Assembly (NCBI GenBank): GCA_937951615.1
Contig: CALFBH010000016.1
Span: 1-64,000 of the forward strand
Length of the DNA: 64,000 nucleotides
Source of the DNA: an uncultured Saprospiraceae bacterium
GTDB taxonomy: Bacteria; Bacteroidota; Bacteroidia; Chitinophagales; Saprospiraceae
Direction: 5' to 3'
Of this stretch, positions 10,843 through 37,586 are shown piece after piece. Within the stretch, counting starts at the first letter, position 1, and each line of letters starts with the position of its first letter. Position numbers and translations under genes: made by a program. The notes beneath the pieces were generated by a model. The model was not told the origin of the DNA. It saw only the letters and a list, made by a program, of their open reading frames with translations, and ran no database searches.

Positions 10843-10854
10843 AAACTCATATTA

Positions 10855-17914: not shown

Positions 17915-18187
17915 TTACGGAGAGACTTTGATAAACGGTTTCACTTTAGGTACTCCATTTGCCGGAATAGCCCGGATGAAGTAAGTACCTGCGGTGAGGC
18001 TAGTCACATTCAGGTTGTAGTTATTCAACCCTTCCTGTGCCACTTCTTTGCTCGAAAGAATTACGCGACCGTCATTCGTAAATATCTCTATCAATAAGTT
18101 TTCATTATTTACCTCGGATTTATATTCCAGCGTCAAGTTGCTCATTGCCGGAACAGGATATACATGAATATCATTAACTAATGTTTC
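17915..18187 (-). other. T9SS type-A sorting domain of the giant adhesin
   Basis: About residues 6291-6381: VYPVPAMSNLTLEY, a middle GRVILSSKEV strand and NVTSLTAGTYFIRA, ending KPFIKVSP. The pattern P-x-P-x(6-8)-strand-D-x-x-G-x3-hydrophobic-L-x-x-G-x-Y-x-x-R matches type-A CTDs recognised by the PorU sortase complex. Confidence 0.88.
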
Positions 18188-21100
18188 TTCGACTTTCGTC
18201 TCAAAATCATTGCTATCAATATTATCAGTATCACCTGAATTGTCTGTAATAAATACAGGTCCGCCACAAGTATTGAAACTAGCTGTATATCTCAGGACAC
18301 CTGCTCTGAATGAATATTCATCACCTGCATTCTGTCCTGCAACGTCGTCAAATTCTATTGTCCAGAAGTTTATATTACCTGTTGTTGAGCCACCTTGTAT
18401 CGGCACTGTAACGGTATGCAACATATCAGGATCAGCGAAACAAGTCGTAAACAATGGTCCATTAGTCGTACCTGGTCCATAAGTATCTACAAGGTTACCT
18501 GCCGGATCATAGACATTAATTGCAATATCACTTTCACAGGAAATTCCTTCTGTTTTGAAGAACAGTGTCAATTCAATATTTGTCAATGAAGCACCAGCTA
18601 CTGTACCAGGATCGGTATAAGTCATAGTTGGATTATTAGCAAATCCTACATTATCAACAAAATCATCCTGATCAGATACAATTTCTACAACTGCACTTGT
18701 AATTGGTCCTAATACTGTGACTACCTGCTGGCAGGTCACTTCATTACCATCATTATCTGCTACTGTCCAAGTAACGATTGTTGAACCTACAGGATAAGTG
18801 CTTGTTGCATCATCCGTACCGGTATAATCATTCGTTATGGTTGTTGTACCGCAATCAGCAGCTTGTAATAATGGAACATTTATATCTGCTTCACAAAGAC
18901 CATTATCTGGTGCTGTGATAACAATATTGTCAGGACAAGCTACAATCGTAGGTCCAGCTTCATCTGTTACAGTTACTGTCGTTTCACAAGTTACTGCATT
19001 GCCATCATTATCTGTTACTGTCCAAGTAACCAGTGTTGTACCGACAGGATAGCTATCAGAAGCATCATCCGTTCCATTATAATCATTGATTATAGTAAAT
19101 GCACCACAATCATTAGCTTCTAATGGATCAATGCTTACCGTTGCTGCACAAGTACCTGCTGCTGCTGCAGTCGTAACATCAGTCGGACAACTTGTAATAG
19201 TTGGTGCTCCACCCACTACTGTTGTTGTCGTCGCAATGTATGTCAATACACCTGCTCTAATAGAGTACTCCGCACCTGCGTTTTGTCCATTGCTATCATC
19301 GAAAGCTACTGTCCAGTTACCAGGAACACCAGTTGTCATACCTGCTGGAATCGTAATCGTCGTCGTGTATAAGGCATTACCACCAATACATGCTCCTGCT
19401 CCAAAGATTGCCGGATAAGTCGAAGTATTACCAGCTGGATCAGTCACCTGTACATCAATATCACCTTCACAAGAACTACCTTCCAGTCTGAAATACAAGA
19501 GTAATTCAATATCAGAAAGTACTGCGCTCGCAGATGTTCCAGGATCAGCATAAGCTGTCGAAGGATTAGCTGCAAAACCAATGTCATCAATGAATGCATC
19601 TTGGTCAGACACGACTGAAACAGTATCCATAACAACTACAGTAGACATTCCTTCAAAAACAGTCACTGTTGTTTCACAAGTTGTCATATTGCCATCATTA
19701 TCCGTTACTGTCCATACAACTGATGTTGCACCCAATGGATAAACACCAGAAGCATCATCTGTACCAGTATAATCATTCGTTATCGTAATTGTACCGCAAT
19801 CATCAGCTATAGGTGTTGGCATACTTATAGTTGCTTCACAACTTCCAGAATCAGTTTCGGAAGAAACTGCTCCCTGACAAAAGATGAGTACTGGTCCATC
19901 ATCCTGAACAGTAACATCAGTAGAACAAGTCACTGCATTGCCATCATTGTCCGTTACTGTCCAAACAACTGTTGTTGTTCCAACAGGATAAGAACCAGAA
20001 GCATTTGCTGTACCTGTTTTATCATTTGTTACCGTAACTGTTCCACAGTCATCAGCAACTAACGCTGGTACATTTACATTTGCAACACACTGATTTGGTA
20101 TAACTGGTGCAGTTATATCCGCAGGACAACTTACAATTGTTGGTCCTACATCTATAACTGTAATATCAGTCGAGCAAGTTGCTGTATTGCCATCACTATC
20201 TGTTACTGTCCATGTTACGGTTGTTGTACCGATTGGATAAGAACCAGAAGCATCTGCACTGCCATTGAAATCATTCGTCACTGTAGTTGCACCACAGTCA
20301 GTTGCTGACAATGCTGGTACACTTACTGTAGCTTCACAACTTCCCTGATCTACACCTTGTGTCATATTTGCAGGGCAACTTACAATCGTCGGTCCAGCAT
20401 CTGTTACAACAACATTAGTAGCACAAGTCGCTGTATTACCATCATTATCCGTTACTGTCCAAACAACTGTTGTTGTTCCAATTGGATAAGTATCTGATGC
20501 ATTAGCTGAATTATTATAATCATTAATAATGGTTACAGTACCACAATCATCAGCCGAAACTGCTGGAACGCTTACTGTAGCATTACACGTTGCAGGATCA
20601 GCTACTGCTGAAATCGTTCCTGAACATAATACAATCGTTGGTCCATCATCTACAACTGTGATATCAGTCGAGCAAGTGGCTGTGTTTCCATCATTATCCG
20701 TTACTGTCCAAACAACTGTTGTTGTTCCTACTGGATAAGAACCGGAAGCATCTGCACCGCCATTGAAATCATTCGTTATAGTAATTGTACCACAATCTTC
20801 CGCATCCAGTCCACCTAATGCACCTGGTGCAGGTACAGTAATTGCGGCGTCGCAGCTACCTTGGTCTACACCTTGTGTTATATCAGCAGGACAAGACACG
20901 ATAGTTGGTCCATCATCTAGAACAGTAACATCAGTCGAGCAAGTCGCTGTATTACCATCATCATCCGTTACTGTCCATATTACAGTTGTTGTACCAACCG
21001 GATAGGTATCGGACGCATCTGCTGTACCTGTTTTATCATTCGTAATAGTAATACTACCACAATCTGTCGCATCTAGTCCACCTAATGTACCTGGTGCAGG

Positions 21101-24100
21101 TATAGTAACTGCTGCTGAGCAAGTTCCTACATCTACCCCTTGTACAATATTTGCAGGACAACTTACAATCGTTGGTCCAACATCAGTTACAGTAATATCT
21201 GCTGAACAAGTGGCCATATTGCCATCATCATCAGTTACCGTCCATACTACTGTTGTTGTTCCGATTGGATAAGTACCGGAAGCATCTGCACCGCCAGCAT
21301 TAAAGCTATTGGTAATCGTTACCGCTCCACAATCTTCTGCTACGAGGGCAGGAACGGTAACTGCGGCGTCGCAGCTACCTTGATCCACACCTTGTGTCAT
21401 ATCAGCAGGACAAGACACGATGGTCGGTCCGCCTTCCGTTACTGTAACGACTGTCTGACAAGTGGCAGTATTGCCATCATTGTCTGTTGCAGTCCAGGTT
21501 ACAGTCGTTGTTCCTATAGGATAGGTTCCGGATGCATTATCCGTACCTGTATAATCATTCGTTACGGTAACTGTGCCACAGTCTGTTGCTACAGCCTGTG
21601 AAATCGTTACATTAGCATCACAACTTGCAGGATCTGCTATTGCAGAAGCTGCACCTTGGCATAGGATAAATAGTGGATTATCATTGCCTGTTACAGTAAC
21701 CGTTGTTTCACATGTTGCTGTATTTCCAGCAAGATCAGTCACAGTCCAAGTTACTACAGTTGTTCCTACAGGGTAAGAACCTGATGCATTGCTTGTACCA
21801 TTATAATCATTCGTTGCCGAAGCAGGTATGCAAGAAGTAAACGCTATTGGCGCAACATTTACATTTGCTGCACAAGCACCTATCGGAGCCATTGCTGTAG
21901 CGTCAGCAGGACAAGTAGTTATAGCCAGACTTGCGGTCGTTATAATCGTCGTATCTGCTATTGTTGCGACATAACAGATTCTACCGAAACGCGCTGAATA
22001 TTCATCCCCAGCATTCTGTCCATTTGAATCATTAAATTCAACTATCCAATCATCCATAGCACCAGTAACCGTTGCAGAAGTAATAGGCAGAGTTACATTA
22101 TACAATGTTCCTATACCTGGCCCCATACCGTTACAAGTACTAAATATGCTACTCGCAGGGAAGCTGGCTACTAATGCACCTGTCGGATCAAATACCTGTG
22201 CTTCTATATCACTCTCGCATGAAGCTCCCGCTACGCGGAAGTACAACTCAAGTGTAATATCTGAAATTGTTGCAGCAGGATCTGTACCTGGGTCGGTGAA
22301 TGGATAATTTCCATTTGCACCAAAGGTCGCATCATCCACAAATAAATCCTGGTCGGATATCATACAAATCGTATCTATCGTCAAGACTATTGTTGTATCC
22401 ATCATGCCCACTGGAGCTGTTACTGTTACTGTATGGTCACAAGTTACTGCATTACCATTCGAGTCACTTACAGTCCAGACTACCGTTGTCACGCCAAGCG
22501 GATAATTATCTGAAGCATCTGTTGTACCATTATAGCTGTTTGTTGCTACTGCACCTTCGCAGGCATCAAATTCAACTGGTGGTACTGTAACATCTGCTGA
22601 ACAATCAGCTCCTGCCGTTGCAACGATGTCTCCAGGACAAACTGTAATTTGTACGGGTGTAATATTTACAATCACATCTACTGCATAAGTACAACCGTTC
22701 TCATCAGTAACTGTCGCCCAAAGATCTTCAATCTTATTCAGGCTGACACAACTGACTGGGAAGATCATAATACCTCCAGTAGTAGGATCATTATTATACC
22801 AATCCACATCACCTGCTGTGCTGACTAATCCTCCAAGAGCCCCCAGATTGACACAAGAAGTATCACCCGGGCAGAACTCAAGTACAGGACTTACCAGTAC
22901 AATTGGATTGTTGATCATCACTGTTACAGAAGACGTTGCTGTACAACCAGATTCGTTGGTTGCTACAACGGTGAATGTTTCACCGTCTGCTGCACCACTT
23001 GCTGAAGTACTTTGTGCAGTCGGATCAGCAATTACTGCTCCGCCGTCTGTTGTCCAACTCCAAACTAATCCACCGGTACCCGTATCCGAAAGTTGAATTT
23101 CGGCATCAGGACACATACCCGTTGCTGTTGCGATAGGTGCTGGATTATCATTGATAATAATTATAATCTCTACTGCAACTGTACAACCTTTATCATCAGT
23201 TACCAGTACCCAGAGTTCATCTATCTTATTCAAACGGACACAACTAGTTGGGAAGATATTCGTTCCACCATTCAGTGGATCGCCATCATACCATCCTACT
23301 GTACCTGTTGTGCTGATTTGGCTGTTGTAAGACATCAAATCAAGGCACATCGTATCGCTTACGCAAACTTCGATAACCGGATCATTAATGACTACCGGAT
23401 CACTGAGTGTGATGGTAATTTCATCCGTTGCTGTACAACCATTATCATTGGTCACTACTACTGTGAAGGTTTCCCCATCAACAGCACCAGTTGCCACTGG
23501 GTTCTCGTCAGTCGGACTAGTAATCGTTGCCCCACCATCCGTTGTCCAAGCCCAGGCAATTCCACCTGTACCAGATTCTGTCAGTTGTACTTCTTCACCA
23601 GGACAATCGCCGCTCGCGCCTGCAATGGCTACTGGAGAAGGATTAACAACAACTGAAATCATTACAGCTAAAGAACAACCATTTTCATCTATTACAACTA
23701 CCCATACATCACCAGCTTGCAATTTAGTTATGCTTACACAGGTTAATGGGAAGATTAATTGGCCACCTGCATTTGGATCACCGAGATACCATTGTACACC
23801 ATAAGGTGCAAAATCACCAGCATACTGTGTCAAATCAACACAAGCCTCATCTTCACAAACTTCAATAGTAATTGGTGTTGCTACTGGCAATGGTAGAAGA
23901 GTTACTGCTACTGCACTTGTTGCAGAACAACCGTTATCATCAGTTATCGTTACCGTAAAGGTATCGCCATCCGCAGCACCTGATGCTACTGGATTTTGAT
24001 CCGTTGGGTTAGTAATTACTGCACTACCATCTGTTGTCCAGCTCCATGCGATTCCTCCTGTACCTGCTTCCGTCAATTGTACATTTGAACCTTCACAAAC

Positions 24101-27100
24101 CGTCGAAGCACTAGCAACTGCTGTTGGCAATGCATTGATAGTAATTGTGATGTTCACTGAATTTGCACAATTTGAAGTCGGATCATTGACCAATGCCCAA
24201 ACGTTGTTCAGACCAATGAATGGAAGATCAGCTACCTGAGCAGGATTAATTATTGTACCTCCCGCAAACGGATCACCTGCATACCAGGTCACCGACGCAC
24301 CGACAGTATTTACAACTGTTTCCCATTGTGTCAGGTCGTAGCTGGTCAAATCATCACCAGCACAGAAGACCAACATTGGGTCATTTGCTTCAGGTGATTC
24401 ATCAAAGGCAACTGTAATTGCATCTGTTGCTGTACAGCCATTCGCATCCGTAATAGTTACGCTTATTGTTTCACTACCCGTTGCACCAAGTGCAATTGGA
24501 TTTTGTAATGTTGCATCATTGAAAACTGCGGTTCCATCTGTAGCCCATGACCAGGAAACGGCATCGCCTCCATTTTCATTGAGTACTAAGTCACCACGTT
24601 CACAAACACTGCCTAATACTTCTATACTTGCTGTTGGTACAGCAAAAGTACTGATAGTCGTCAGCACTGCTGATGTACAGCCTGTAGCTGGGTCAGTTAC
24701 CTGCGCCCAGACATTACCTGCTCCTATCACGCCTATATCTGCTGCGGTAGCCGGATTAATCAATACGCCACCTGCACCAGGATTTCCATCATACCATGTT
24801 ACGATACCTGTTGCACTTACGTCGCCGTTGTGCTGTGTCAGGTCGTAGCTCGCAAGATCTTCATCTACACATGCCATGATATTCGCATCCGTCGCAATTG
24901 GTGATTCATTTATAGTCAGTACTGCTTCTGCTCTATCGCTTGGACAGCCACTACAGCCTGTCTGTGCGTAGAAAGTATAAGTACCTGGTAGTCCGTTGCC
25001 TACAATCGCTTCAGCATCAAATGTAGTACCCATGCCTAGATTCGTACCACCTGTTGGTGTATCCCACCAAGTAATCATCGGCTCAATAGTACAAGTATAA
25101 GTATACACCAATTCTGCTTCAAAGTCTGCTGCTACTGGTCCACCGTTAAAAGAGACTGGCACTATTATATCTCCAGGGCTTACCGCCAATGGAGCTAAAG
25201 TAACGAGTCCAGGTCCAACACCACTGACTGACGTGTTAGTAGTGGTATTCACCAATACAACATCGCTACCAGCCAAAGTAAATGTAGCTGTTACACTTTC
25301 TAAGGTACAACCAGATGGAGCTAAAGGTGCAGTCTGCATGTCAAAGGCAACTGTACCTCCAAACAATGCGAGGGAGCTTCCGTTGCTTGCTGCCGCCATT
25401 GAAATAAACGCTAATTCATCAGGGCATGATGCGCCCAATGCTTCAAAATCAGCTATATCGTCTCCTATACAGGCTTCTATCGAAGCTACTGTTGGTGCGG
25501 CAGGGTTTGGTGCGATATCAATCGTCACCATGATTGCCGAGCTACAGCCGTTTGCTCCTGTTGTTAATGCCCATACTCCGTTTCCAGTAATAATAGGATC
25601 GGTCAAATCTACTGTTGTTGGTGGGTTGATCGGCGTTCCGCCATTTGCAGGATCACCTGCATACCAAACCGTCGTTCCTGCATCAAATATATCTACATCG
25701 CCATCATGCTGTGTCAAGTCATAGCTGGTCAGGTCATCACTGGCACAGAATGCCAATACCGGATCAACTAGGAGTGGACCTCCCATGAAGGTCACTGTTG
25801 TAGCTGCTGTAGCTGTACAACCGCTTGCATCTGTTACCATTACCGTAAAGGTATCGCCATCATTTGCACCACTTGCTGTAGTCGCTTGCGCACCTGCATC
25901 TGCAATTGCACCAGTACCATCTGTTGTCCAACTCCAGGCTACACCTGCGGTGCTGCCTGTTTCTGACAAGCTTACAACATCACCTATACAAGGCATATCT
26001 GCTGTAACTGCTGCAAATGGTGCAGGCAGAACAGTAATCGTAATATTCATTGCACCAGAACAACCCGAAGAAGCACTTACCTGAGCCCAGACATTGCCTG
26101 TACCGATAACTGCTAAGTCTGCTGCTGTAGCTGGATTGATGACATTACCACCTATACTTGGGTCACCATCATACCAAACTACGAGGCTTGGATCTGCTGG
26201 ATATGCTTCTGCATTATGTTGTGTCAAATCGTAACTGGTCAAATCTTCGTCTGCGCAGAATTCGATCATTGGATCATTCGTTGCAACTTCATCTTCTACT
26301 GTAATCGTTACTTCATCTGTACAGCTTACTCCACCGCAAGTCAATACGGCTGTATAAGTCGTTGTAATCAATGGATTAACGACTGTATTCAAATTGGTAT
26401 CAAATATAGTAGCTCCACCATCATCAGACCAACCGGCGAATGCACAGGTTTCTACAAAATCCGGCACGTAAGAGATACAAGTTGTACTAGAAAGTAGTGT
26501 AGCATCATCGAAGGAAGATTCGACAAAATTAACACCATCTGCTGCATCCAGTCCGATTGTTGCCGTAGCACCAAAACTTTCTGTAGCATCTAAGGCATTA
26601 TCTAAATCATCATACACAAAGGTAATTGTTCCTGTAGCACTATCCCAGATCACCTGGAAGGTCACGCCGTCACCGGCTACTGCTCCTGTACCACTAAAAT
26701 GTGGTCGGTCATCCCATTGTACAATCAACATTGTACCCATTTCCTGCCAGTACACATCTCCTATGTCGCTATCCCAGTCATCCCATAATGGTGAGACTAC
26801 AGGATTACCGGAAGCTCCCCCTCCTGTCAGGGCAGTATTACCTGTAAAGAGTTGCTCGCTTCCTGTTGCGCCTACGATTATTCCACCATTATTACCAATA
26901 CCAAAGTTGGTATAAGCTGTCGTGAATAAGGTATAAGTATTTGTCGTCGTGATATAAGCTTCGCCGTCGTCGCCCAGTCCAAGTGCCGTACCAGAACCAG
27001 AAATGTCGATAAATCCTGTCGTACAGGCATCATCAACAGTATACCCCTGAAATACTCCAACCGCACCTGCACTCACTACCGTTGCATCAAGCGTAGTAGA

Positions 27101-30100
27101 TTCGCCGGCACAAATCGTTGCATCTTCACCTGCGTCTATTTCTCCGACTGCAATGACAACTGAAGCTGTTGCAGTGCAACCTGCCACATTTGTTACTACA
27201 ACCGTAATGATTTCTCCATCGGAAACATTACTGGCTATCGGATTGGCTATTGTATTGTCATCAAATGTAGCTGTACCGTTTGTAGTCCAGTCCCATGTTG
27301 CGACTGCACTACCACCGATTTCAGCAAGACTTACTACCCCTCCTGCACATATTACAGTATTCGATGCAATTTCTGCGTTTGGTGCTTCATCTACTGTAAC
27401 TTCTGTTTCGCTGGTTGCGGTGCAACCATTGGCATCTGTTACCGTTAATGTCAGCGTATAAATACCTGGCACCATCATATTGTATGTTGGATCTTCCAGT
27501 GTTACATCATCGAAGCTACCACCTGTAGCTGTCCATGCGAAAGTGTATGGTGCTGTACCATCTGCTGCTGTACCATCTAATAGTAAAGCGTCAGCAGGAC
27601 ACTTAGCATAAGGTCCGCCGGCATCTGCTGTTGGTGCATCTAATATCTCAACCGTTACTGGAACTCTTGCTCCGATACAGCCATTGCCCATATCACATTC
27701 TGCGTAATAAGTATAGATACCCGGTACGGTCGCATCAAAAGCTCCTTCTTCTGCTGTTGTACCTGTTGGGTCAAATGGTGAACCAGCTCCCTGTTGTGTA
27801 CCGCCAGAAGCAGCATCCCACCAGGTCGAAGCAATTGTACTTGGCTGTGTAGCCGTTATGGTCATACTTGCTGCTGTAAATTCTCCATCATCTCCTCCAG
27901 TATCATCACTAAAAGTAATTGTCCAGATACCATTCGGATCTTCGCCTGCAAAGGCACTGAATGGACTGGCAGGCTGATAAGTGCCTTCCAGATCATTAGA
28001 ACCTGTACCTCCTACACCTAATATAGAAGCTCCTGCATCTGTAAATGTATAGCTACCAGAACCACTTGCTCCTGTACCATCAGCTGGTGAACCAGGTCCA
28101 AGGTCGTCTGAACCAGCATTAGTAACACCATCCATGATCGCTACCACTGTTCCTGCAGGAGAGGTAATACTAATATTCACATCACTCATCCAGGAATGCC
28201 ACATATCCACATCTACGCTTAGATTTGAAACTGTTGCACCTGTGGGGAAAGTCACTGCTACAGTAGCAGAGCCTGTATCACCAGCCCCCTCAACGACAAC
28301 AGGGAAAGCTGACGCATCAAAGGCAAAGGCCCCTACTGTTTCTCCGCCTCCGCCACAATCGGCTGTCAGACCAGTTGCTGCAATGTCTCCATTCGGATCA
28401 CCTGCGCATACGGTCAGACCAGCTACTGTTGGTGAAACAGCGGTCATATTTGTAGTTACTGTAATTGCTGTGCTTGCAGTACAACCATTGGCATCCGTAA
28501 CAGACGCTGAGATTGGACCAAGAGCCAGTAAGACATCTAAGTCGGCTGCTGTTGCAGGATTAATCACATTACCATTGGCATCAAACCAAACGACTGTGTT
28601 TCCTGCACCACCATCTACTACTGCATCAAATGCTGTTAAGTCGTAGCTGGTCAAGTCATCCGTATCGCAAGCCATAATCATTGGATCATTAGCTTCTGGT
28701 AGTGGATTGAATGCTGCTGTTACGCTGGCTTCTGCTGTACATCCAGCGGCAGTCGTCACCATTACGGTGAAAACATCGCCATCAACTGCTCCAGCTGTGG
28801 TAGTTGTTTGAGCCGCAGGATCAGCAATTGCGCTGCCTCCGTCTGTCGTCCAACTCCAAGCCACACCTCCTGTGCTACCTGTTTCACTTATTGTCAGTAC
28901 TTCTCCCACACATGGCATATCTGCCTCTGCTACTACTGTCGGGAGTGGATTGATTGTTATTGTAATATTCACAGAAGAAGCACAACCTGTGGAGGCGTCA
29001 TCTACCTGTGCTGTTATACTTGTAAGTCCAATAGCTGGTAAGTCTGCAACCGTTGCAGGGTTGATAACATTACCATTGCCATCCAACCAGGTGACTGGTA
29101 AACCAGAACCGCCATTGACTGTAGCATCATGCTGTGTCAAATCGTAGCTGGTCAAATCATCTGGTGTACAGAACATCAGTGCAGGATCAACTGCTACTGG
29201 TACTGCTTCAATGACCAGTACTACTGGTACTCTTGCACTTGGACAACCATTATCATCGCATTGTGCATAGAATGTATAAGTACCTGCGGTATTCGCATCT
29301 ACTACTGTTCCTTCTTCGCCTGTCAAACCTGTTGGATCAAGCGGGCTTCCTGCTCCAATTAGTGTACCGCCGGTTGCAGCATCCCACCAAGTTAGAGAAG
29401 GTGGTGTTACTGCGCTACCCGGACCAACCAATGCAGTCGTATAAGTATCGCCTGTGCCTCCACTACTGAAGGTCGTTGTCACTAAAGTATAAGTGACACC
29501 TGCCGTCAATGAAACGCCGACAATATCGGAAGTACCAACACCACCAGCACCATCATCATCACTTCCAAGACAGCCTACATCTGGATTGAGTGGGTCAAAA
29601 GCTCCGTCATAAATGAAGGCATAACCATCCCATTGATTTGCTAATCCATCGTTTTGATTGCTTAAAATATCATACGTTCCACTTACATCTACTGTAAAGC
29701 TAATCGCCTCATAAGGATGATCCGCTGCGCCTGATGCAGGTCCGCAACCAAAAGGTCGTGCAAATACATCTGTTGCACCAGTCAAATCGCCATCCAGAGA
29801 AACAGGAACTCCTCCACCTGCTGAAACACAGGAAGCTGTCAGTCCGATTGCTGCTATATCTCCATTTGCATCGCCTTCACAAACTGTTAAGCCTGCTACG
29901 GTTGGTGGATCAGAATCCGGTGTCGTGCTGACTGGTATCAATGCAGTAGCAACACAACCTGTAGCTGCATCTGTCACCTCTGCAAATAAACCATTGGCTA
30001 CGATAGCCGGATCAGTTAAGTCCGCTGTTGTTGCAGGATTGATAAGTGTACCACCTGCATTAGGATCTCCTATGTACCACGCTACTGCGTTTCCGCCACC

Positions 30101-33100
30101 TACGACTGCATCGTTTGCTGCCAGGTTGTAGCTCATGTCAGTAAGTCCACCACAGAAAGCTATTTCCGGATCAGTAATGACCGGTGGTTCTTCAACCACA
30201 ACGCTTACTGCTGTTCTTGTGCTTTCACATGGGTCGGCACAACTTACATAATATGTATAAGTTCCTGGTGTATTTGCATCAAAAGCACCTTCTTCCGCAG
30301 TCGTTCCTGTTGGATCGAATGGGCTGCCTGTGCCTTGTGCCGTTCCCGCTGTCGGGTCATCATACCAGGTAATTATTGCTGTTGGTGAAGTACCTCCGGG
30401 AGCAGTAGCTGTTATCGTGATAGAGGCGGAAGACACTATACCATCATCTCCACCGGCATCATCCATAAATCGTAAACTCCACATGCCATTTACTGGCTCG
30501 CCTATAAATGTAGTCGCATCCCACAAAATTGGTGAACTACCATCAATAAGTCCAAAAGGTAAAACATCTGTTGGTTCGTAATTGCCTCCAGGTATCGGAT
30601 TTGCTGCTGCGCCTAAATCATTTCCTGCGTAAGCAGGGCTAAAGCAGTATTGTATCGTTGCAGGAGCAGTTGATTCATCTCCGTCTCCCAAATCATTCAA
30701 GCTACCTTCGTCTGCAAGAACTATTGCTTCAAGACCGTTCGGGCTTGTTAAAATAACTTCCATGTCACCTGAAAAGGAGTGATCTATTGTAAAACATACT
30801 TCAATATCATCACCGCTTTGTACGATTGCCGCACTTGCCGGGTCAGGATTGACCATTACCGATCCTAAGACGCCAGAAGACAAACCAAAAACGACATCAT
30901 ATATACCAGCATCAGGGAAAGCTGCTATTGTCATCGTGGTTATCGGTGCGGCACAGCTTGCTGTCAGACCAGTAGCTGATAAATCTCCATTGGGATCACC
31001 TGGACAGATATTTAAGCCTGCTGCTGTAGGCGGATCGGAATCCGGCTCTATCGTAATCGTAAGATTTACTGTAGCTGAACAACCTGTGGCTGCATCATCA
31101 ACTACTGCAAAAATATTCGTCAAGCCAATCAATGGCAAGTCTGCACCATTCGGTGAATTAATAGGAACACCTGCTCCATCTACCCAGAATACCGGTAAAC
31201 CAGCAGGGCTTACAGTAGCATCAAGGGTGGTCAAATCAAAGCTCGTCAAATCATCTGTGCCACAGAAGACCAGTGCAGGATCAATCGCATCAGGTGATGC
31301 TTCTACCACTACAGTGATTGGTGTTCTTCCCCCTTCACATGGGTCTGTACAACTTGCATAGTAGGTATAAGTACCTGGCGTATTGGCATCAAAAGCACCT
31401 TCTTCGGCAGTCGTTCCTGTTGGATCGAATGGGCTGCCTGTGCCTTGTGCTGTACCACCTGTGGCGGCATCATACCAAGTAACGATAGCCGTAGTTGAAA
31501 CACCGGCTGGCGCAGTAATTGATATAGAAGCCGAAGACACTATACCATCATCTCCACCGGCATCATCCATAAATCGTAAACTCCACATGCCATTCACCGG
31601 CTCGCCTATAAATGTAGTCGCATCCCACAAGATTGGTGAACTACCATCAATAAGTCCAAAAGGTAAAACATCTGTTGGTTCGTAGTTGCCTCCAGGTATC
31701 GGATTTCCTGCTGCGCCTAAATCATTTCCTGCGTAAGCAGGGCTAAAGCAGTATTGTATCGTAGCAGGAGCAGTTAATTCATCTCCATCTCCCAAATCGT
31801 TACTACCACCTTCATCTGCAAGTACTATTGCTTCAAGACCGCCCGGACTCGTTAAAATAACTTCCATGTCACTAGCCCAGGAATGATCTATTGTAAAGCA
31901 TACTTCAATATCTGCGCCGCTTTGTACAAGGCTCGTACTTGCCGGGTCAGGATTGACCATTACCGATCCTAAGACGCCAGAAGACAAACCAAAAGCGACA
32001 TCATATATACCAGCATCTGGGAAGGCTGCTGTTGCTGTTGTTGTAGCACCACCGGCACATTCGGCGGTTAAACCTGTTGCTGCCAGGTCTCCATTTGGAT
32101 CACCGGGGCAGATTGCCAGTCCTGTGACTGCAGGTACACCCGTACCAGTAACTACATCAACAGTAATTTGTGCGCTGACCGGACAAACGCCGTCATCTAC
32201 CAATACCCAAAGGTCAGCACCTACTACATTTAAATCAACGGCTATATCTGGGAAAATCGGAATACCTCCTGTAAGTGGGTCGCCGAAGAACCAGTCTATT
32301 GTTGCGCCTGCATTAATTGCAGCTTCAAAAGTTGTGAGGTCTATATTTGTAATATCTAAATCAGAATCATCGCAAAATTCGATAGCCGTTAGGTCAACTG
32401 TCGCTGGCGGTAGAATTTCTACGATTATTTGTTCAGTCACTACACAGCCCGGGCTACAATTCTCGCAAGGCACAGTTGCTGCATCATCCTGATCAAAATT
32501 AACATCTATGGTATAAGTACCCGGTACATCTGTAAACGGGCTGGTAATCGCCGAACCATCTGCATTATTGGTATAAGTATACACACCTGTTGCTACATTG
32601 CCTTGTCCATCATCTGCGGAGAATAGGGCATCAAGATCAACAGGCAAGCCATCTGCACAAACCTGGATCGGTGCTGGTGTCGTCACTATTGGATAGAAGC
32701 AGGTATTGCCAATTGTCAAATCATCTGTTCCATCACAAAGGCTACAGAGCGTAAGTGAGTATCCTGCTGCTGCATCATGTACGCCTGGCAGGGTAAATGT
32801 GCCTGCTGGTCCCTGTGGTAAGAAAGTTCCATCTGGAATCAGTGTAACACCATCAGCCGGATCAAATAAACCAGTGTTTCCACCTGGTGCAATTTGCCAT
32901 GCATTAAATGATCCGCTGAATACGGTGACTGTCTCGCTGAACTGGTTACTTAAACCATTTGGCGAAAGCTCATTCAGACAGGCACATGGGTCAGCAATTT
33001 CTACACAAGCTCCTACGGTCACCTCATAAGTTGCGATGACTTCGCAGCCTGGGAAAGCGGGTGTAGTTCCACCATCTGGAGAAATACCGCCATTGCCATC

Positions 33101-36100
33101 ATCTGCTCCCATATAAGTCAGGGTGATGGTATGTGTACCTGGTCCTGATAAGGCAGGATCGAAAGTACCGTTCAGGTTGTCACCGGCATCTGTCACACCA
33201 GAACCTGACCAAACTAATGTAGCTGCTGTACTCATTGCAGAATTCTCTGTTGATTGCGTATATCCGCCTGCTCCATCAGGAGTATAAGTAATACTACATC
33301 CACCTCCACTCAAGAATGTTACATCATCAAAACTAAACTCTGTAAAATTCGCACCATCTGCATTATCCAAACCTATACTTGCTGAGCCACCATTGTCGTG
33401 ACTACCATCTGCTGTATTTATTACATCATCATATACAAAAGTAATTGCACCTGTTGCGCTATCCCAAATAAGTTGGAACGTAACACCATCACCAGGATTT
33501 GAAGCACCACAACAATCTCTAAGATCATTCCATTGTACAATCAACTGCGTTCCTATTTCCTGCCAGATCACGCTTCCTGTACCTCCATTCATTAAATCAT
33601 CCCAAAATGGATAAATACCCGGAAGTGTTTGACTACTACCACTTCCATCAATTGTTTCATTAGAAAAATCTGAATTGGCAGTAAGTGTACCAAGATAAAA
33701 ATCGCCATTATTTCCTATCGTAAAATCAGTATAACTTACTCCATAAAAAGTGTAGGAGTTTGTTGTTGTGATCCCTATTTCACCGTCATCACCTAAATCG
33801 AATGCCACACCTGTACCTGCAATATCAGTAAAAGCAGTTGGGCATGCTCCAACTCCTGCCATACCATCAGTAATAATAGCTGTAAGATTCTCTACAGGGC
33901 TATCGCAAACAAGACCAACTGGTAGCGGGTCAATACTTGCTGTAGGATATTCGCATACATTTGAAATACTTAATCCAAGAGAATTCCAGGTTGTACCACC
34001 GTCATTAGAGGCTTCTACATCATTGATGGTATAGCCTACTCCATTATCATGATCGAAGGTTAATTGGTAAATACCGGAACCTGGAGGATTCTCGTCAAAC
34101 ATCACATTGGGACCCGGCGGTGTGCCTGTGGTCGCATCTGTTCTCAGCATAAAGCCTGTCAATCCTACAATCTCGACGACTTCACCAAAAGTACCATCAC
34201 CTGCTCCCGGAGCAGATTCGTCATTATTACAAATACAAGGATCAACTATTGTAAATGTGGAGAAAGAAGGTGTTCCTACACAATCACATTGACTACCGTC
34301 ACAATCCAGTGTTGTTAGCATGTCTATAGTTGTCGGATCGCCATCACATTCCATGCCTACTGTTGTAGTCGTTCCTGTTGCACAATCTTCCAGCGTACCT
34401 CCTGTACAGCTACATTCCGATCCATCAGAACCTAATACCTGCACATCACCTACTGTACAAGGATTACCATCACATTCTACTGTTTGTGTAGTTGTACAAG
34501 CTGCGTCACAGGCTGGTGCTACTGTTATCATAGCCGGGACTCTATCACTTTCACAGCCATTACATTCGCAGACATGATAGAAAGTATAAGTACCGGGTGT
34601 AGCTTCATCGTAAGTGTTGCCATTCTCATCTACCAATCCGGCCGGGTCTAATGGGCTGCCCGTTCCGATTGGCGTTGTTGAGGTCATATCGCTGTACCAG
34701 ACAATGTCGGCTGGAGGACCAGCAACAACAGGTCCTGTAGTTTGTCCTGAAACAGCAGGAATGGCTGTGTATTCTACAGAATAATTAATTGTCAAATCAA
34801 CATTTCCAGGTCCAAAGTCTGTTTCACCAAATAGGGAGAAAACTGCAACGCCTCCCGGTCCTGTAATACCAGGAAAAACTACTGGTCCGGCAAATGTACC
34901 GGAAACAGGCACATCTGCTACTGCCGTAGCCCCTGGAATTTGTCCTGGACATGCCGTACCAAAAGCACCACAGGAATTATATTCAACAATAGTAGAACCA
35001 TCGGGTCCTGTTACTGCAAATCCCATTTCTGTAGCCCATGTTCCCCCTTGAGGTGTTACCGTCCAGTCTATAGAAGTTACCGTAATTTCATAAGTTGTAC
35101 AAGGTGGCAATGTGCCATCCAGCGGAACGTCTATTGAGCCGAAAGGCGTACCACCTGCACTAGGTAGTCCTGGTCCTGGCGGTTGAAATGTATCATTATC
35201 GTTAAAGGAGCCAGTAGCTCCGGTTGCCGTACTAAAGGTTACTGTACATCCTGCATCTGCTGTCACCACAGTCAAGTCACTTGCAGGGTCTAACAATCCT
35301 GTTGCAGGGTCTATAGCACCACATGGAATACAATCTACCAAAGTCTGCACATCAGGGCAATCAGCACAGGTAGCCATCAAGTCCACAGATATATTGGTGG
35401 GATCTGTTGCACAGAATGTCTGGTCTGCGCCAGAAGTACCTGGTGTCGTTGGCGTCGCTGTCAAACAGCCTAGATTACCAGTAGCTGTAGGGTCATATTC
35501 GGCGAAGCAGGGGTCGTTACAATCTATAACAATACAACCAGCACAGGTAATTGTTTCTTCAGCAGGTAGCATTACACATCCTGCCGGTGCTCCTGCCAGG
35601 GCTGCAACCGTAGCTGTAGCGGCAAAGTTTGTAGTGAACATATCACCATCAGCAACACAGGCAGCTCCGGTTTCCGTTTCGCAGACTGTTCCGTCAGCGG
35701 CTACGAGTTCAACTGTAGGGGTACCACAGCCTGATCCGTCATCTACCACATTTGCCGTGAAGGCAGAGGGATATACTGTAACTGTCACCATCTGAGCACA
35801 AGTAACACCGCAACTGGTAACGGACATCGTTAAATCTACATCGACAGAGGCGCATCCCGTAGCACCTGCCATTGAAGGATCGAAAGTATAGACTTCATCA
35901 CCTGAATTGGGCGTACCATCAGGGTCGGTAGTTACGGCTCCGGTACCTGACCATGCTACTGTAGCGGGCGGCGCAGTATAAGTAAATGTTGTCCATGCTA
36001 ACTCATCTTGTGCATCTGCAGCAATAGCATCAATAAATTGTGCCAAATTAGCTATTATGACATTACCTTCACAGTCCAATAAATCGGCATCACTGCCATC

Positions 36101-37060
36101 CCAGCCATCTCCGAAGTCATCCACAATATACAAAGTGTAAGTAGCACCATCCATAAGTGGAGCAGAGGTGAAACTATTACCCACAGCGGAGGTTGCCCCC
36201 CAATTACCGACTGTGGTGATATTATTAGCTCCGGGCGTACTTCCCTCAATGGAAGTCTCGGTGTCTGTACCAAACAAACCCGTACCGGCAGGTGGAAGTC
36301 CAATAACAGAACCATCGTCAAAAGTACCTTGATATAGTCCAAGTCCATGTTCACCGTCAAAGCCCCCATCTACAGTTTGTATAGCAGTAACTCCAGCGTC
36401 CAGCGGAAGAATAGCCGTAGCAGTCGCTGCTGCATCAGCCGCACAAAAAGTACTTCCATCAGCTATCCCCGCTTGCGTATCGCTACATATACATGAACCA
36501 TCATCTATGGTAGCGCAAGGGTCGAAATTGAGGTCACCCATAGTAGTACAGCCCGTGATTGCGGTAGCATCACAGCCAAAAATAGGTAAGGTAATAACAA
36601 ACTCTTCATTACTGGTTTCACAAGAATTGGTTACACTTACATCCGGTTCAACATCTAAGCCTTCTCCAGCATTTTGTAGTACGACACAACCATCCTGAGC
36701 GGCACAGCCATTGACAGAGCCATCTTCGGTCACGATCACATTAAAGAAACCGCCATTCCAATCATCACCAAACGAATCGTAGCCAGTAAATACAAGTGTA
36801 TTGCCGTCCGTCACACAGAAAGGGCCTTCCAAAGTAGGCGTGGCAGAAGTCGCGTAAGTACCTGCGGGTTGGCAGGCAATTACAGTACCTGTAGTTTGAT
36901 TCACCAATTCCCACCCCACTTCATTTCCAAAACTCGTATGGAAAATTTCAAGCGTAATTTCGGTTTGTCCTGCCGGGCATTGAGCATTGACATATATACC
37001 AAATAAAAGACAACAAATTGTCAGGTATATTTTTTTATTTTTTGTAATGTTATTTCTCAT
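17915..37060 (-). CDS. Giant T9SS-secreted multidomain adhesin (6381 aa)
   Basis: 6381 residues. Signal peptide 1-27 (ends YVNAQ). N-terminal part: Cys-rich segments with an NFDPxATxDDGSC motif near 172-193. Middle (about 1550-4790): about twelve Ig/PKD-like units carrying a DDLTSYDLTQHD motif and TGCxSxVxITI, interspersed with proprotein-convertase P-domain-like sandwiches (about 1681-1854, 2049-2223, 2901-3074) and two nidogen-like beta sandwiches with the WxDxxxGxVxWQE motif (about 1071-1258, 3338-3528). C-terminal third (about 4800-6121): twelve HYR modules with three SDQD-type sandwiches. The last 90 residues (VYPVPAMSNLTLEY...KPFIKVSP) form a type-A T9SS sorting domain. Almost certainly a cell-surface adhesin. 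No porP/sprF partner is adjacent. The frame is uninterrupted over 19.1 kb. Boundaries are approximate. Confidence 0.92.
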   Translation of the reverse strand: MRNNITKNKKIYLTICCLLFGIYVNAQCPAGQTEITLEIFHTSFGNEVGWELVNQTTGTVIACQPAGTYATSATPTLEGPFCVTDGNTLVFTGYDSFGDDWNGGFFNVIVTEDGSVNGCAAQDGCVVLQNAGEGLDVEPDVSVTNSCETSNEEFVITLPIFGCDATAITGCTTMGDLNFDPCATIDDGSCICSDTQAGIADGSTFCAADAAATATAILPLDAGVTAIQTVDGGFDGEHGLGLYQGTFDDGSVIGLPPAGTGLFGTDTETSIEGSTPGANNITTVGNWGATSAVGNSFTSAPLMDGATYTLYIVDDFGDGWDGSDADLLDCEGNVIIANLAQFIDAIAADAQDELAWTTFTYTAPPATVAWSGTGAVTTDPDGTPNSGDEVYTFDPSMAGATGCASVDVDLTMSVTSCGVTCAQMVTVTVYPSAFTANVVDDGSGCGTPTVELVAADGTVCETETGAACVADGDMFTTNFAATATVAALAGAPAGCVMLPAEETITCAGCIVIDCNDPCFAEYDPTATGNLGCLTATPTTPGTSGADQTFCATDPTNISVDLMATCADCPDVQTLVDCIPCGAIDPATGLLDPASDLTVVTADAGCTVTFSTATGATGSFNDNDTFQPPGPGLPSAGGTPFGSIDVPLDGTLPPCTTYEITVTSIDWTVTPQGGTWATEMGFAVTGPDGSTIVEYNSCGAFGTACPGQIPGATAVADVPVSGTFAGPVVFPGITGPGGVAVFSLFGETDFGPGNVDLTINYSVEYTAIPAVSGQTTGPVVAGPPADIVWYSDMTSTTPIGTGSPLDPAGLVDENGNTYDEATPGTYTFYHVCECNGCESDRVPAMITVAPACDAACTTTQTVECDGNPCTVGDVQVLGSDGSECSCTGGTLEDCATGTTTTVGMECDGDPTTIDMLTTLDCDGSQCDCVGTPSFSTFTIVDPCICNNDESAPGAGDGTFGEVVEIVGLTGFMLRTDATTGTPPGPNVMFDENPPGSGIYQLTFDHDNGVGYTINDVEASNDGGTTWNSLGLSISNVCEYPTASIDPLPVGLVCDSPVENLTAIITDGMAGVGACPTAFTDIAGTGVAFDLGDDGEIGITTTNSYTFYGVSYTDFTIGNNGDFYLGTLTANSDFSNETIDGSGSSQTLPGIYPFWDDLMNGGTGSVIWQEIGTQLIVQWNDLRDCCGASNPGDGVTFQLIWDSATGAITFVYDDVINTADGSHDNGGSASIGLDNADGANFTEFSFDDVTFLSGGGCSITYTPDGAGGYTQSTENSAMSTAATLVWSGSGVTDAGDNLNGTFDPALSGPGTHTITLTYMGADDGNGGISPDGGTTPAFPGCEVIATYEVTVGACVEIADPCACLNELSPNGLSNQFSETVTVFSGSFNAWQIAPGGNTGLFDPADGVTLIPDGTFLPQGPAGTFTLPGVHDAAAGYSLTLCSLCDGTDDLTIGNTCFYPIVTTPAPIQVCADGLPVDLDALFSADDGQGNVATGVYTYTNNADGSAITSPFTDVPGTYTIDVNFDQDDAATVPCENCSPGCVVTEQIIVEILPPATVDLTAIEFCDDSDLDITNIDLTTFEAAINAGATIDWFFGDPLTGGIPIFPDIAVDLNVVGADLWVLVDDGVCPVSAQITVDVVTGTGVPAVTGLAICPGDPNGDLAATGLTAECAGGATTTATAAFPDAGIYDVAFGLSSGVLGSVMVNPDPASTSLVQSGADIEVCFTIDHSWASDMEVILTSPGGLEAIVLADEGGSNDLGDGDELTAPATIQYCFSPAYAGNDLGAAGNPIPGGNYEPTDVLPFGLIDGSSPILWDATTFIGEPVNGMWSLRFMDDAGGDDGIVSSASISITAPAGVSTTAIVTWYDAATGGTAQGTGSPFDPTGTTAEEGAFDANTPGTYTYYASCTDPCEGGRTPITVVVEASPDAIDPALVFCGTDDLTSFDLTTLDATVSPAGLPVFWVDGAGVPINSPNGADLPLIGLTNIFAVVDDAATGCSATVNLTITIEPDSDPPTAAGLNICPGDPNGDLSATGLTASCAAPITTMTIAAFPDAGIYDVVFGLSSGVLGSVMVNPDPASAAIVQSGDDIEVCFTIDHSFSGDMEVILTSPNGLEAIVLADEGSLNDLGDGDESTAPATIQYCFSPAYAGNDLGAAANPIPGGNYEPTDVLPFGLIDGSSPILWDATTFIGEPVNGMWSLRFMDDAGGDDGIVSSASITITATAPGGTSPTAIITWYDDPTAGTAQGTGSPFDPTGTTAEEGAFDANTPGTYTYYVSCADPCESTRTAVSVVVEEPPVITDPEIAFCGGLTDMSYNLAANDAVVGGGNAVAWYIGDPNAGGTLINPATTADLTDPAIVANGLFAEVTDAATGCVATALIPVSTTPDSDPPTVAGLTVCEGDANGDIAAIGLTASCVSAGGGVPVSLDGDLTGATDVFARPFGCGPASGAADHPYEAISFTVDVSGTYDILSNQNDGLANQWDGYAFIYDGAFDPLNPDVGCLGSDDDGAGGVGTSDIVGVSLTAGVTYTLVTTTFSSGGTGDTYTTALVGPGSAVTPPSLTWWDAATGGTLIGAGSPLDPTGLTGEEGTVVDANTAGTYTFYAQCDDNGCPSARVPVVLVIEAVPVAVDPALMFCTPDDLTSYDLTQHDATVNGGSGLPVTWLDGNGNVINPATVADLPAIGLTSITAQVDDASTGCASSVNITITINPLPTVVAEADMPCVGEVLTISETGSTGGVAWSWTTDGGSAIADPAAQTTTTAGAVDGDVFTVMVTTAAGCTAEASVTAAFNPLPEANDPMIMACDTDDLTSYDLTAFDAVVDGGAGNTVVWFDANGNVINPATAADLDVLLALGPISASVTDANGCTASTAITVTTNMTAVSPTVAGLTVCAGDPNGDIAATGLTADCGGGGETVGAFAFDASAFPVVVEGAGDTGSATVAVTFPTGATVSNLSVDVDMWHSWMSDVNISITSPAGTVVAIMDGVTNAGSDDLGPGSPADGTGASGSGSYTFTDAGASILGVGGTGSNDLEGTYQPASPFSAFAGEDPNGIWTITFSDDTGGDDGEFTAASMTITATQPSTIASTWWDAASGGTQQGAGSPFDPTGTTAEEGAFDATVPGIYTYYAECDMGNGCIGARVPVTVEILDAPTADAGGPYAKCPADALLLDGTAADGTAPYTFAWTATGGSFDDVTLEDPTYNMMVPGIYTLTLTVTDANGCTATSETEVTVDEAPNAEIASNTVICAGGVVSLAEIGGSAVATWDWTTNGTATFDDNTIANPIASNVSDGEIITVVVTNVAGCTATASVVIAVGEIDAGEDATICAGESTTLDATVVSAGAVGVFQGYTVDDACTTGFIDISGSGTALGLGDDGEAYITTTNTYTLFTTAYTNFGIGNNGGIIVGATGSEQLFTGNTALTGGGASGNPVVSPLWDDWDSDIGDVYWQEMGTMLIVQWDDRPHFSGTGAVAGDGVTFQVIWDSATGTITFVYDDLDNALDATESFGATATIGLDAADGVNFVESSFDDATLLSSTTCISYVPDFVETCAFAGWSDDGGATIFDTNLNTVVNPLITTTYTAVLTCGGVSCTDEVTITVEDEVATNDPMIEFCADEDLTSYDLTQHNAEAYPADPSLVVWYDGDPSIGGNVINPATAADLAVIGTGNVWAQVSASSGCSGAMNITITVLPAPFAAVTADMPCIGDVVSLSETGSTAGVAWSWTTDGTGAIADAGAQATTASGANDGDTFTVMVTDASGCTATAATTVTFMGGPLLVDPVLAFCASDDLTSYDLTQHDGDVDIFDAGTTVWYAGDPANGGTPINPPTTVDLTDPIITGNGVWALTTGANGCSSAIMVTIDIAPNPAAPTVASIEACIGDDIADFEALGASCPDELAFISMAAASNGSSLALFGGTVAFDMQTAPLAPSGCTLESVTATFTLAGSDVVLVNTTTNTSVSGVGPGLVTLAPLAVSPGDIIVPVSFNGGPVAADFEAELVYTYTCTIEPMITWWDTPTGGTNLGMGTTFDAEAIVGNGLPGTYTFYAQTGCSGCPSDRAEAVLTINESPIATDANIMACVDEDLASYDLTQHNGDVSATGIVTWYDGNPGAGGVLINPATAADIGVIGAGNVWAQVTDPATGCTSAVLTTISTFAVPTASIEVLGSVCERGDLVLNENGGDAVSWSWATDGTAVFNDATLQNPIALGATGSETISVTITDANGCTATDAITVAFDESPEANDPMLVFCAGDDLTSYDLTQWETVVNTVGASVTWYAGDPFAGGTIINPAQVADLPFIGLNNVWALVNDPTSNCANSVNITITINALPTAVASASTVCEGSNVQLTEAGTGGIAWSWTTDGSAVITNPTDQNPVASGAADGDTFTVTITDDNGCSATSAVAVTLLPLPVATPITIEVCEDEACVDLTQYAGDFAPYGVQWYLGDPNAGGQLIFPLTCVSITKLQAGDVWVVVIDENGCSLAVMISVVVNPSPVAIAGASGDCPGEEVQLTESGTGGIAWAWTTDGGATITSPTDENPVATGAVDGETFTVVVTNDNGCTATDEITITLSDPVVINDPVIEVCVSDTMCLDLMSYNSQISTTGTVGWYDGDPLNGGTNIFPTSCVRLNKIDELWVLVTDDKGCTVAVEIIIIINDNPAPIATATGMCPDAEIQLSDTGTGGLVWSWTTDGGAVIADPTAQSTSASGAADGETFTVVATNESGCTATSSVTVMINNPIVLVSPVLEFCPGDTSCVNLGALGGLVSTAGDVDWYNNDPTTGGIMIFPVSCVSLNKIEDLWATVTDENGCTYAVDVIVNITPVQITVCPGDIVATAGADCSADVTVPPVEFDACEGAVATNSYNGTTDASDNYPLGVTTVVWTVSDSNGNAVTCDHTVTVTAPVGMMDTTIVLTIDTICMISDQDLFVDDATFGANGNYPFTDPGTDPAATISDITLELYFRVAGASCESDIEAQVFDPTGALVASFPASSIFSTCNGMGPGIGTLYNVTLPITSATVTGAMDDWIVEFNDSNGQNAGDEYSARFGRICYVATIADTTIITTASLAITTCPADATAMAPIGACAANVNVAPIAFTSCIPASATNDYNGTSNASGSYPVGTTVVTWTVTDLAGNTATCETTVTVTGNDNPLFILCQGAASAIADPASCDANVTISQAVATDCGTVTVTNDYTGTDNASGTYPIGTTTVTWTATDNDGNTATCQTVVTVTEGGPTIVSCPADMTQGVDQGSCDAAVTVPALVAEDCGAVTITNSFNAGGADASGTYPIGTTTVVWTVTDDDGNMATCSADITVTDVGPTIVSCPANIVQGVDVGTCSAAVTIPAPGTLGGLDATDCGSITITNDKTGTADASDTYPVGTTTVIWTVTDDDGNTATCSTDVTVLDDGPTIVSCPADITQGVDQGSCDAAITVPAPGALGGLDAEDCGTITITNDFNGGADASGSYPVGTTTVVWTVTDNDGNTATCSTDITVVDDGPTIVLCSGTISAVADPATCNATVSVPAVSADDCGTVTIINDYNNSANASDTYPIGTTTVVWTVTDNDGNTATCATNVVVTDAGPTIVSCPANMTQGVDQGSCEATVSVPALSATDCGATTVTNDFNGSADASGSYPIGTTTVTWTVTDSDGNTATCSTDITVIDVGPTIVSCPADITAPVIPNQCVANVNVPALVADDCGTVTVTNDKTGTANASGSYPVGTTTVVWTVTDNDGNAVTCSTDVTVQDDGPVLIFCQGAVSSETDSGSCEATISMPTPIADDCGTITITNDYTGTDDASGVYPLGATSVVWTVTDNDGNMTTCETTVTVFEGMSTVVVMDTVSVVSDQDAFIDDIGFAANPSTAYADPGTSASAVLSDIELLLYFRLEGSSCEGDIDVQVTDPAGNTSTYPAIFGAGACIGGNALYTTTITIPAGMTTGVPGNWTVAFDDSNGQNAGAEYSIRAGVLTYIATTTTVVGGAPTITSCPTDVTTAAAAGTCAATVSIDPLEANDCGAFTIINDYNGTDDASDSYPVGTTLVTWTVTDNDGNAVTCETTVTVTDEAGPTIVACPDNIVITAPDNGLCEADINVPLLQAADCGTTTITNDYTGTDDATSTYPVGSTIVTWTVADNDGNEVTCQQVVTVLGPITSAVVEIVSDQDDFVDNVGFANNPTMTYTDPGTVAGASLTNIELTLFFKTEGISCESDIAINVYDPAGNLVDTYGPGTTNGPLFTTCFADPDMLHTVTVPIQGGSTTGNINFWTIEFDDVAGQNAGDEYSFRAGVLRYTASFNTCGGPVFITDNSGDTDNIDSNDFETKVEETLVNDIHVYPVPAMSNLTLEYKSEVNNENLLIEIFTNDGRVILSSKEVAQEGLNNYNLNVTSLTAGTYFIRAIPANGVPKVKPFIKVSP
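18700..22660 (-). repeat. Tandem array of twelve HYR modules
   Basis: Coding repeat, period mostly 247-267 bp (82-89 residues), each with SYPVGTTTVVWTVTDNDGNxxTC and a CGxxTVTNDY/N motif. The conserved GNxxTC codons recur near 18752, 18999, 19689, 19937, 20187, 20437, 20686, 20952, 21219, 21472, 21722 and 22453. Neighbouring copies at 19.9-21.5 kb are most alike, which suggests recent unit duplication. HYR modules are Ig-like adhesion folds. Confidence 0.88.
30235..31016 (-). repeat. Duplicated P-domain/Ig unit, copy B
   Basis: Nearly identical at DNA level to about 31345-32120; matching points lie 1104 bp apart for most of the length (6-bp indel near one end). Encodes ICPGDPNGDLxATGL, a P-domain-like sandwich (SGVLGSVMVNPDP...MWSLRFMDDAGGDDG) and the start of the next Ig unit. 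Long runs show no change over 40-100 bp, so duplication or gene conversion is recent. Confidence 0.85.
31345..32120 (-). repeat. Duplicated P-domain/Ig unit, copy A
   Basis: N-terminal member of the 1.1-kb duplicated unit of the adhesin gene; see copy B. Confidence 0.85.
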
Positions 37061-37121: not shown

Positions 37122-37145
37122 GACAGCATTGCGAACAATGCTGTC
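37122..37145 (-). terminator. Rho-independent terminator of the small secreted protein gene
   Basis: Perfect 10-bp stem GACAGCATTG/CAATGCTGTC with a 4-nt loop. T-rich sequence follows on either strand; on the minus strand it ends the gene at 37242-37586 and leaves about 60 bp to drive the giant adhesin gene. Confidence 0.75.
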
Positions 37146-37241: not shown

Positions 37242-37586
37242 TTAATGCCCCATTTCCTGTAGTTTCTCTTTCATGCCCTCTACCATACCAGTCACATATC
37301 TTTTTTCTTCAGTCGTGAGTGTAGCCTGATCAACCTTCGTCCAGAATTCATAAGATTCTTTACTCGTGCTATTCAAGTCACCCCAATTTAGTGTTTGCCC
37401 TAGTTTGTTTTGTAAGTTCTTACGCATTTGCAGTTTTGCCTGCATTTGGGCTTTTTGAGTTGTTTGTTGTACATTTTCTTTAGCAGGTGTTTGCTGAAGT
37501 TCATTCGCAGCTTGTCCGAATACGCTCATAGCGCATACTGCAAAAAAGGCGGTCAATAGTGTCGTTAGAATGTTTCTCTTTGTCAT
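37242..37586 (-). CDS. Small secreted helical protein (114 aa)
   Basis: 114 residues, not recognised. Signal peptide about 1-25 (LLTAFFAVCAMSVFGQ). The mature part is Gln/Lys-rich, helical and charged (AQMQAKLQMRKNLQNKLGQTLNWGDLNSTSKESYEFWTKVDQATLTTEEKRYVTGMVEGMKEKLQ); no cysteine after the signal. Likely periplasmic. It is upstream of the giant adhesin on the same strand but separated by a perfect terminator, so not clearly co-transcribed. A 14-bp palindrome TACAATATATTGTA lies 52 bp upstream of its start. Confidence 0.75.
   Translation of the reverse strand: MTKRNILTTLLTAFFAVCAMSVFGQAANELQQTPAKENVQQTTQKAQMQAKLQMRKNLQNKLGQTLNWGDLNSTSKESYEFWTKVDQATLTTEEKRYVTGMVEGMKEKLQEMGH

Follow-up and report, generated by a model that had tools for sequence, protein, structure and literature searches.

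Introduction

Very large surface proteins are known among the cargo of the T9SS, SprB and RemA of Flavobacterium johnsoniae being examples that the protein described here resembles in this respect. Aureispira, the source of the grappling-hook protein GhpA, belongs to the Saprospiraceae, whose giant surface proteins are abundant and functionally opaque. In RTX adhesins, split Ig domains project ligand-binding domains from the axis of the protein, and some of these domains have been shown to bind glycans (PMC12077191, PMC10865825). Cargo with a type-B CTD, such as SprB, associates with PorP/SprF-like proteins, and PorV is the presumed collector of type-A cargo (PMC9143113). Here we analyse a window of 64,000 nucleotides (contig CALFBH010000016.1, positions 1 to 64,000) from an uncultured Saprospiraceae relative with a genome of 6.96 Mb in 142 contigs, and compare the predicted architecture of a giant protein encoded in it with these systems.

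A giant T9SS type-A protein

The giant gene is a single open reading frame without frameshift (Table 1); the original prediction had its coordinates and length exactly right and did not mention that it lies on the minus strand. An N-terminal Sec signal peptide can be read from the sequence, ending ...IYVNA-Q (MRNNITKNKKIYLTICCLLFGIYVNA-Q) and without a lipobox, and the tail is of T9SS type A, with matches above cut-off to TIGR04183 (28.8 bits, cut-off 23) and to PF18962 (Por_Secre_tail; 39.0 bits, cut-off 27), so that both export signals proposed earlier were recovered. Pfam further detects Ig_7, P_proprotein, PKD and HYR (12 stretches), and the Cys-rich head, SYDLT units and HYR tail of the original prediction are all present. 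SprA (2,495 bits) and the PorV family (414 bits, outside the window) are encoded in the source genome. A lack of an adjacent porP/sprF gene had been remarked on, with the suggestion to search elsewhere: PorP_SprF has 17 matches in the genome and none in the window, so the observation stands, but since type-A cargo uses PorV, a missing neighbour of this kind is expected and not informative. Taken together, these features support a T9SS-exported, stalked surface protein, in keeping with the long stalk first proposed, and we infer that it is secreted and displayed on the surface.

The protein is uniformly acidic, with K+R at 0.64%. The clade's giant Ig proteins (that of the window, L051, L169 and L161) share a K+R content of 0.59–0.77%, compared to 12% in MnmG, and contain 11–14% Asp+Glu; ordinary trypsin proteomics would nearly miss such proteins. 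The protein had been placed among the larger T9SS cargo; its 6,381 aa are not exceptional for its clade, in which we found open frames of 6,093 aa (same genome), 7,993 aa (G120:C52, L160) and 9,991 aa (G221:C142, L161), the latter two with Ig_7-type modules.

A sister species (G001:C157, a Saprospiraceae MAG, JAHDFX010000026.1) encodes an orthologue of ~6,009 aa, with 64% identity over residues 1339–4337, 66% over 4416–5809 and 60% towards the C terminus; the N-terminal heads differ. The orthologue is broken only by a scaffold gap of ~120 N, and a frameshift at this position was rejected because the break is the gap itself. Within the giant gene no exact repeat of at least 80 bp was found (the longest exact internal repeat is ~60 bp), and the best of the long internal duplications covers 860 bp at 84% identity. 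Collapse or frameshift of the assembly is therefore unlikely, all the more since the orthologue is similar in length, and the intactness of the frame, as originally described, was borne out.

The large neighbours of the two genes differ, with an FAD-linked oxidase, MnmG and a UDP-GlcNAc epimerase in the window and ASPIC/UnbV, BatD and an enoyl-CoA hydratase beside the orthologue. The window also encodes a protein with the effector-associated domain EAD11 (10840–11811, plus strand), and the contig of the orthologue has an EAD11 protein as well, 984 aa long (L050:12689–15643). Further genes in the window encode a feruloyl-esterase-like alpha/beta hydrolase (BD-FAE) with a T9SS tail of its own (7719–9020, minus strand) and a CcbP calcium-binding domain protein (15696–16355, plus strand). 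Rfam gave no matches in the window.

Table 1. Features of the giant gene and the small gene upstream of it, with nucleotide positions in the window and residue numbers of the giant protein.
Feature	Position	Strand	Remarks
Giant T9SS surface-protein gene, 6,381 aa	17915..37060	-	orthologue in G001 / JAHDFX010000026.1
Sec signal peptide, residues 1-26	36983..37060	-	sequence
Cys-rich head, residues 27-194, DSFGDDWNGG + GCTTMGDLNFDPCATIDDGSC motif	36479..36982	-	unaligned in orthologue
Possible split Ig-like unit, residues 195-432, ~143-aa guest with DDFGDGWDG	35765..36478	-	tentative; by eye; without Pfam match
Split Ig_7 no. 1, residues 540-850; guest 569-783, without Pfam family	34511..35443	-	
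Nidogen-like guest copy 1, Ig-like host, residues ~1062-1370	32951..33877	-	fold and nesting tentative
Split Ig_7 no. 2, residues 1642-1925; P-domain guest 1671-1857, replaced relative to orthologue	31286..32137	-	
Split Ig_7 no. 3, residues 2009-2296; P-domain guest 2038-2227, replaced relative to orthologue	30173..31036	-	
Split Ig_7 no. 4, residues 2384-2624; guest 2413-2553, without Pfam family, replaced	29189..29911	-	
SYDLT - PKD - SYDLT stalk segment, residues 2625-2875	28436..29188	-	AlphaFold: PKD Z 9.8, GhpA Ig fragments Z 10-11
Split Ig_7 no. 5, residues 2876-3145; P-domain guest 2905-3078, kept in orthologue	27626..28435	-	
PKD/Ig stalk pair, residues 3146-3312	27125..27625	-	PKD matches
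Nidogen-like guest copy 2, Ig/PKD host, residues 3313-3605	26246..27124	-	fold unconfirmed
SYDLT - PKD - SYDLT stalk segment, residues 3606-3853	25502..26245	-	GhpA base Z 10.1; PKD Z 10
Split Ig_7 no. 6, residues 3854-4057; guest 3883-3993, without Pfam family	24890..25501	-	related guest in orthologue
Alternating SYDLT and PKD-type modules, residues 4058-4800	22661..24889	-	
HYR tail, residues 4801-6290: 12 HYR and three P-domain-like 'CESDI' modules (~4890-5030, 5812-5950, 6118-6262)	18191..22660	-	
T9SS type-A sorting domain, residues 6300-6381	17918..18163	-	PF18962, TIGR04183
Terminator-like hairpin (10 bp) separating small gene and giant gene	37122..37145	-	
Small secreted protein gene, 114 aa, 181 nt upstream of giant gene	37242..37586	-	

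Six Ig_7 domains split at one point

In the middle of the protein Pfam detects only the C-terminal parts of Ig_7 domains (from profile position 14–18 onward). Using models built from the two Ig_7 halves (B-half and C-half) to locate split hosts, we found a B-half paired with a downstream C-half in all six units of the giant protein and in all seven of the orthologue, the intervening guests of the giant protein measuring 111–215 aa. When the guests were excised in silico, near full-length Ig_7 matches were obtained in 6/6 cases (profile 2–10 to 81–84, 25.6–31.7 bits), and the matches of the C-halves alone (four tested) start at profile 31–33, with 24.2–26.8 bits. The insertion point thus directly precedes the conserved strand-C tryptophan and, as judged from these profile matches, every one of the six Ig_7 (CHU_C-associated Ig) domains is interrupted there. 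Naming strands after the general Ig fold, the insertion site would be the B–C loop. Across 60 related genomes the majority of Ig_7 matches are contiguous.

An AlphaFold model of residues 2384–3148, with alignments drawn only from window and L056 sequences, reached a mean pLDDT of 67. GhpA fragments align to it from the B-half of unit 4 to past the guest (304 residues, Z 11.2), and this range, which concerns aligned positions only, is compatible with a single Ig domain that has been interrupted. Because the AlphaFold models are shallow (pLDDT 67 and 54), they do not directly show how the split host packs.

The guest domains

The six hosts hold three P-domains, assigned by Pfam or by clear similarity to Pfam-matched ones, and three guests without a Pfam match, which are probably other beta-sandwiches. 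The P-domain fold was confirmed in the model for the guest of unit 5: a Kex2/furin P-domain aligns at residues 2904–3074 (model 521–691; Z 14.7, 2.2 A over 129 residues), in agreement with the guest boundaries set earlier from sequence. The P-domain insertions of the original prediction were thereby upheld by sequence and fold, every Ig_7 host being split at a single site. The proposed nidogen-like segments, of which copies 1 and 2 are 43% identical, were not confirmed: no NIDO match appeared in Pfam even at E≤10, and the AlphaFold model of residues 3226–4072, which covers copy 2, was poor. NIDO, PPC and DUF11 identities of guests, proposed by eye, have support from neither Pfam nor NCBIfam. 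An ML-domain (E1_DerP2) match in the giant protein was disregarded because no single stretch passed alone, and Cas12a matches to the CESDI module are due to chance.

Guest replacement between orthologues

We paired the split units of the giant protein (p1–p6) with those of the orthologue (o1–o7) by their neighbouring domains, which are 61–88% identical for the pairs p2–o3, p3–o4, p4–o5, p5–o6 and p6–o7. The guests behave differently from pair to pair. Those of p2 and p3 are 68–70% identical to the o1/o2 guests, compared to 42–43% for their positional partners in o3 and o4, around which the neighbouring domains match by position at 61–84%; the sequence preference switches at the guest boundary and reverts within the C-half. 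The p4 and o5 guests are unrelated (27%, not alignable), and their C-half is 77% identical. The P-domain guest of p5/o6 is kept (75%) and has not accelerated, and the p6/o7 guests have diverged to 47%, below their hosts. Measured in 40-residue windows, mean identity is 34.5% for the three replaced guests and 71.4% for the remainder, in which the lowest window is not under 48% (Mann-Whitney p 7e-8, the windows not being fully independent). The breakpoints of the exchanges are blurred into the host halves because these are short.

Guests are thus replaced in three of the five corresponding units, two of them by a P-domain subtype found elsewhere in the same gene. Within this single orthologous pair the alignments show guest replacement with the flanking domains staying orthologous. 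Within each gene these guests are close to one another, at 88% identity for p2 and p3 and 83% for o3 and o4, which suggests that guests are copied between units of one gene. Only one of five congeneric genomes searched contains the giant gene, and neither this genus nor that of G138 yielded another orthologous pair on which the exchange could be checked. In a control pair (C11 and G001:C309, 73–75% identity) windows of the repeat region are mostly 80–98% identical, the exceptions being a variable N-terminal part and one deletion.

Distribution of split Ig_7 domains

Two other giants of the same genome, L051 (G000:C11) and L169 (G000:C95), carry split Ig_7 domains as well, and the guests, one in C11 and three copies in C95, are all CESDI modules. 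The same module is un-nested in the HYR tail of the giant protein. The P-domain unit was matched in 50 of 298 genomes of the order (1e-8), and other families of the order also have matches spanning both Ig_7 halves and the P-domain. In a search of the phylum (395 genomes), matches outside the order were mostly to the P-domain alone, with one extending to the C-half. In genus g49 (G053, G134, G150) the P-domain guest is kept. One member, L148 (G134:C133), holds two tandem P-domains in one split Ig_7 host, where its relatives hold one, and has by eye a CHU_C-like (type-B) tail.

A small secreted protein encoded upstream

The small gene lies on the same strand as the giant gene, and its product is without a Pfam family. 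The only clear homologue in 61 genomes, at 62% identity, precedes the orthologous giant gene by ~120 nt; the one other match is weak and stop-ridden. At both loci a 10-bp hairpin (z −3.2 and −5.4) stands between the two genes. Its outer pairs agree and its inner pairs differ, and the copy in the window is terminator-like. Since the other neighbours differ between the loci, the small and the giant gene seem to be conserved together as a unit. Neither the small gene nor the guest exchange figured in the original prediction. The small protein might, at a guess, be an export or assembly helper.

Discussion

We consider it probable that the giant protein is a long multi-ligand adhesin with exchangeable ligand-binding modules projected sideways from a stalk. 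SYDLT, PKD and HYR modules would form the stalk of this very long, very acidic T9SS type-A protein, which would be expressed and sticky. The six Ig_7 domains are interrupted ahead of strand C, and from each a different folded guest would project, the guests being the likely binding modules, although P-domains may also act in fold stability or in binding Ca. A guest may be replaced by recombination among the gene's own units or by import from elsewhere, the host Ig halves and their neighbours staying in place, in which case binding specificity would change without redesign of the stalk.

That the protein might instead form a grappling-hook-type predation filament, a multimeric fibre snaring prey as GhpA of Aureispira does, seems unlikely. 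GhpA, with 5,898 aa, is comparable in size, is secreted by the T9SS and comes from a predator, and the stalk modules match it by sequence (E 2.8e-62 and 2.7e-84) and fold (Z 10–11). The similarity, however, is scattered across repetitive Ig modules and carries a high bias, GhpA is matched equally by a second giant from this genome (8.7e-64 from 1,200 aa), and no match to it was obtained with the P-domain unit or the CESDI module. The N-terminal 4,301 aa, searched as a single query, gave no PDB match at 1e-5, a result that carries little weight given the query's length. We give little probability to a gliding-motility adhesin moved along the cell surface like SprB or RemA; the T9SS machinery is present and giant repetitive T9SS proteins do include SprB, yet the type-A tail and the lack of an adjacent sprF/porP gene set this protein apart from SprB.

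The composition of the protein, which would resist trypsin-like proteases, would suit a structural protein of a matrix or S-layer-like kind, in which the inserts do no more than shield the stalk or make it stiffer. We regard a purely structural role as improbable, because unrelated guests at one site and their replacement between orthologues fit variable specificity better. Very improbable, finally, is ordinary fast divergence of exposed domains in place of module exchange. Exposed binding modules often evolve fast, and the p6/o7 guest also falls below its hosts, but divergence of this kind would not bring the p2 and p3 guests nearer to those of other units than to their positional partners, nor does it agree with p4/o5 guests that do not align and a p5/o6 guest that is not accelerated.

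The multi-ligand adhesin can be extended to a broader proposal, possible but still doubtful, in which the Ig_7 B–C loop is a general cassette site in the giant T9SS proteins of the order. Recombination within the host halves would exchange the guests, so that each lineage acquires its own binding repertoire while the stalk is conserved, and the upstream small secreted protein would be a dedicated export or assembly partner travelling with the gene.

The split-Ig_7 rule makes probable binding modules findable from sequence alone, shows convergence with the RTX adhesins, which use another secretion system, and comes with a documented replacement of single modules between orthologues. It can be tested which modules set specificity and whether exchange at the B–C loop diversifies adhesion or prey capture, and the giant protein would offer a natural system for altering what a cell adheres to.

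Comparison with known systems

The principle of a split-domain adhesin is known from RTX adhesins; the giant protein has in principle the same architecture and would be the T9SS counterpart of these adhesins, with evidence of guest replacement between orthologues. The literature searched yielded no split or inserted Ig domains in T9SS adhesins, which does not in itself prove their absence. Like HYR-domain proteins (PF02494), the giant protein contains HYR domains, although these are confined to the C-terminal quarter and interleaved with the three CESDI modules. SprB has a type-B tail and needs SprF, unlike the type-A protein described here, which has no sprF neighbour. GhpA (Aureispira sp. 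CCB-QB1; PDB 9flp, 9fly and others) shares with it similar Ig/PKD stalk modules, size and T9SS export. GhpA is a heptameric grappling hook; the P-domain unit and CESDI module have no match in it, and the likeness of the stalk is common to another giant of the genome. The RTX adhesins AhLap of Aeromonas hydrophila, FrhA of Vibrio cholerae and MpIBP likewise combine a giant Ig-like stalk with a domain, in their case ligand-binding, inserted in a split Ig-like domain, and it is by analogy with them that the guests may bind ligands. The RTX adhesins are type I secreted and have RTX beta-rolls; in the giant protein Pfam found no C-terminal RTX beta-roll or T1SS signal, a T9SS type-A tail standing there instead, and the host is Ig_7. 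The giant protein further differs from them in having six split hosts, guests that are mostly P-domains, and, by the sequence comparison, guest replacement between orthologues.
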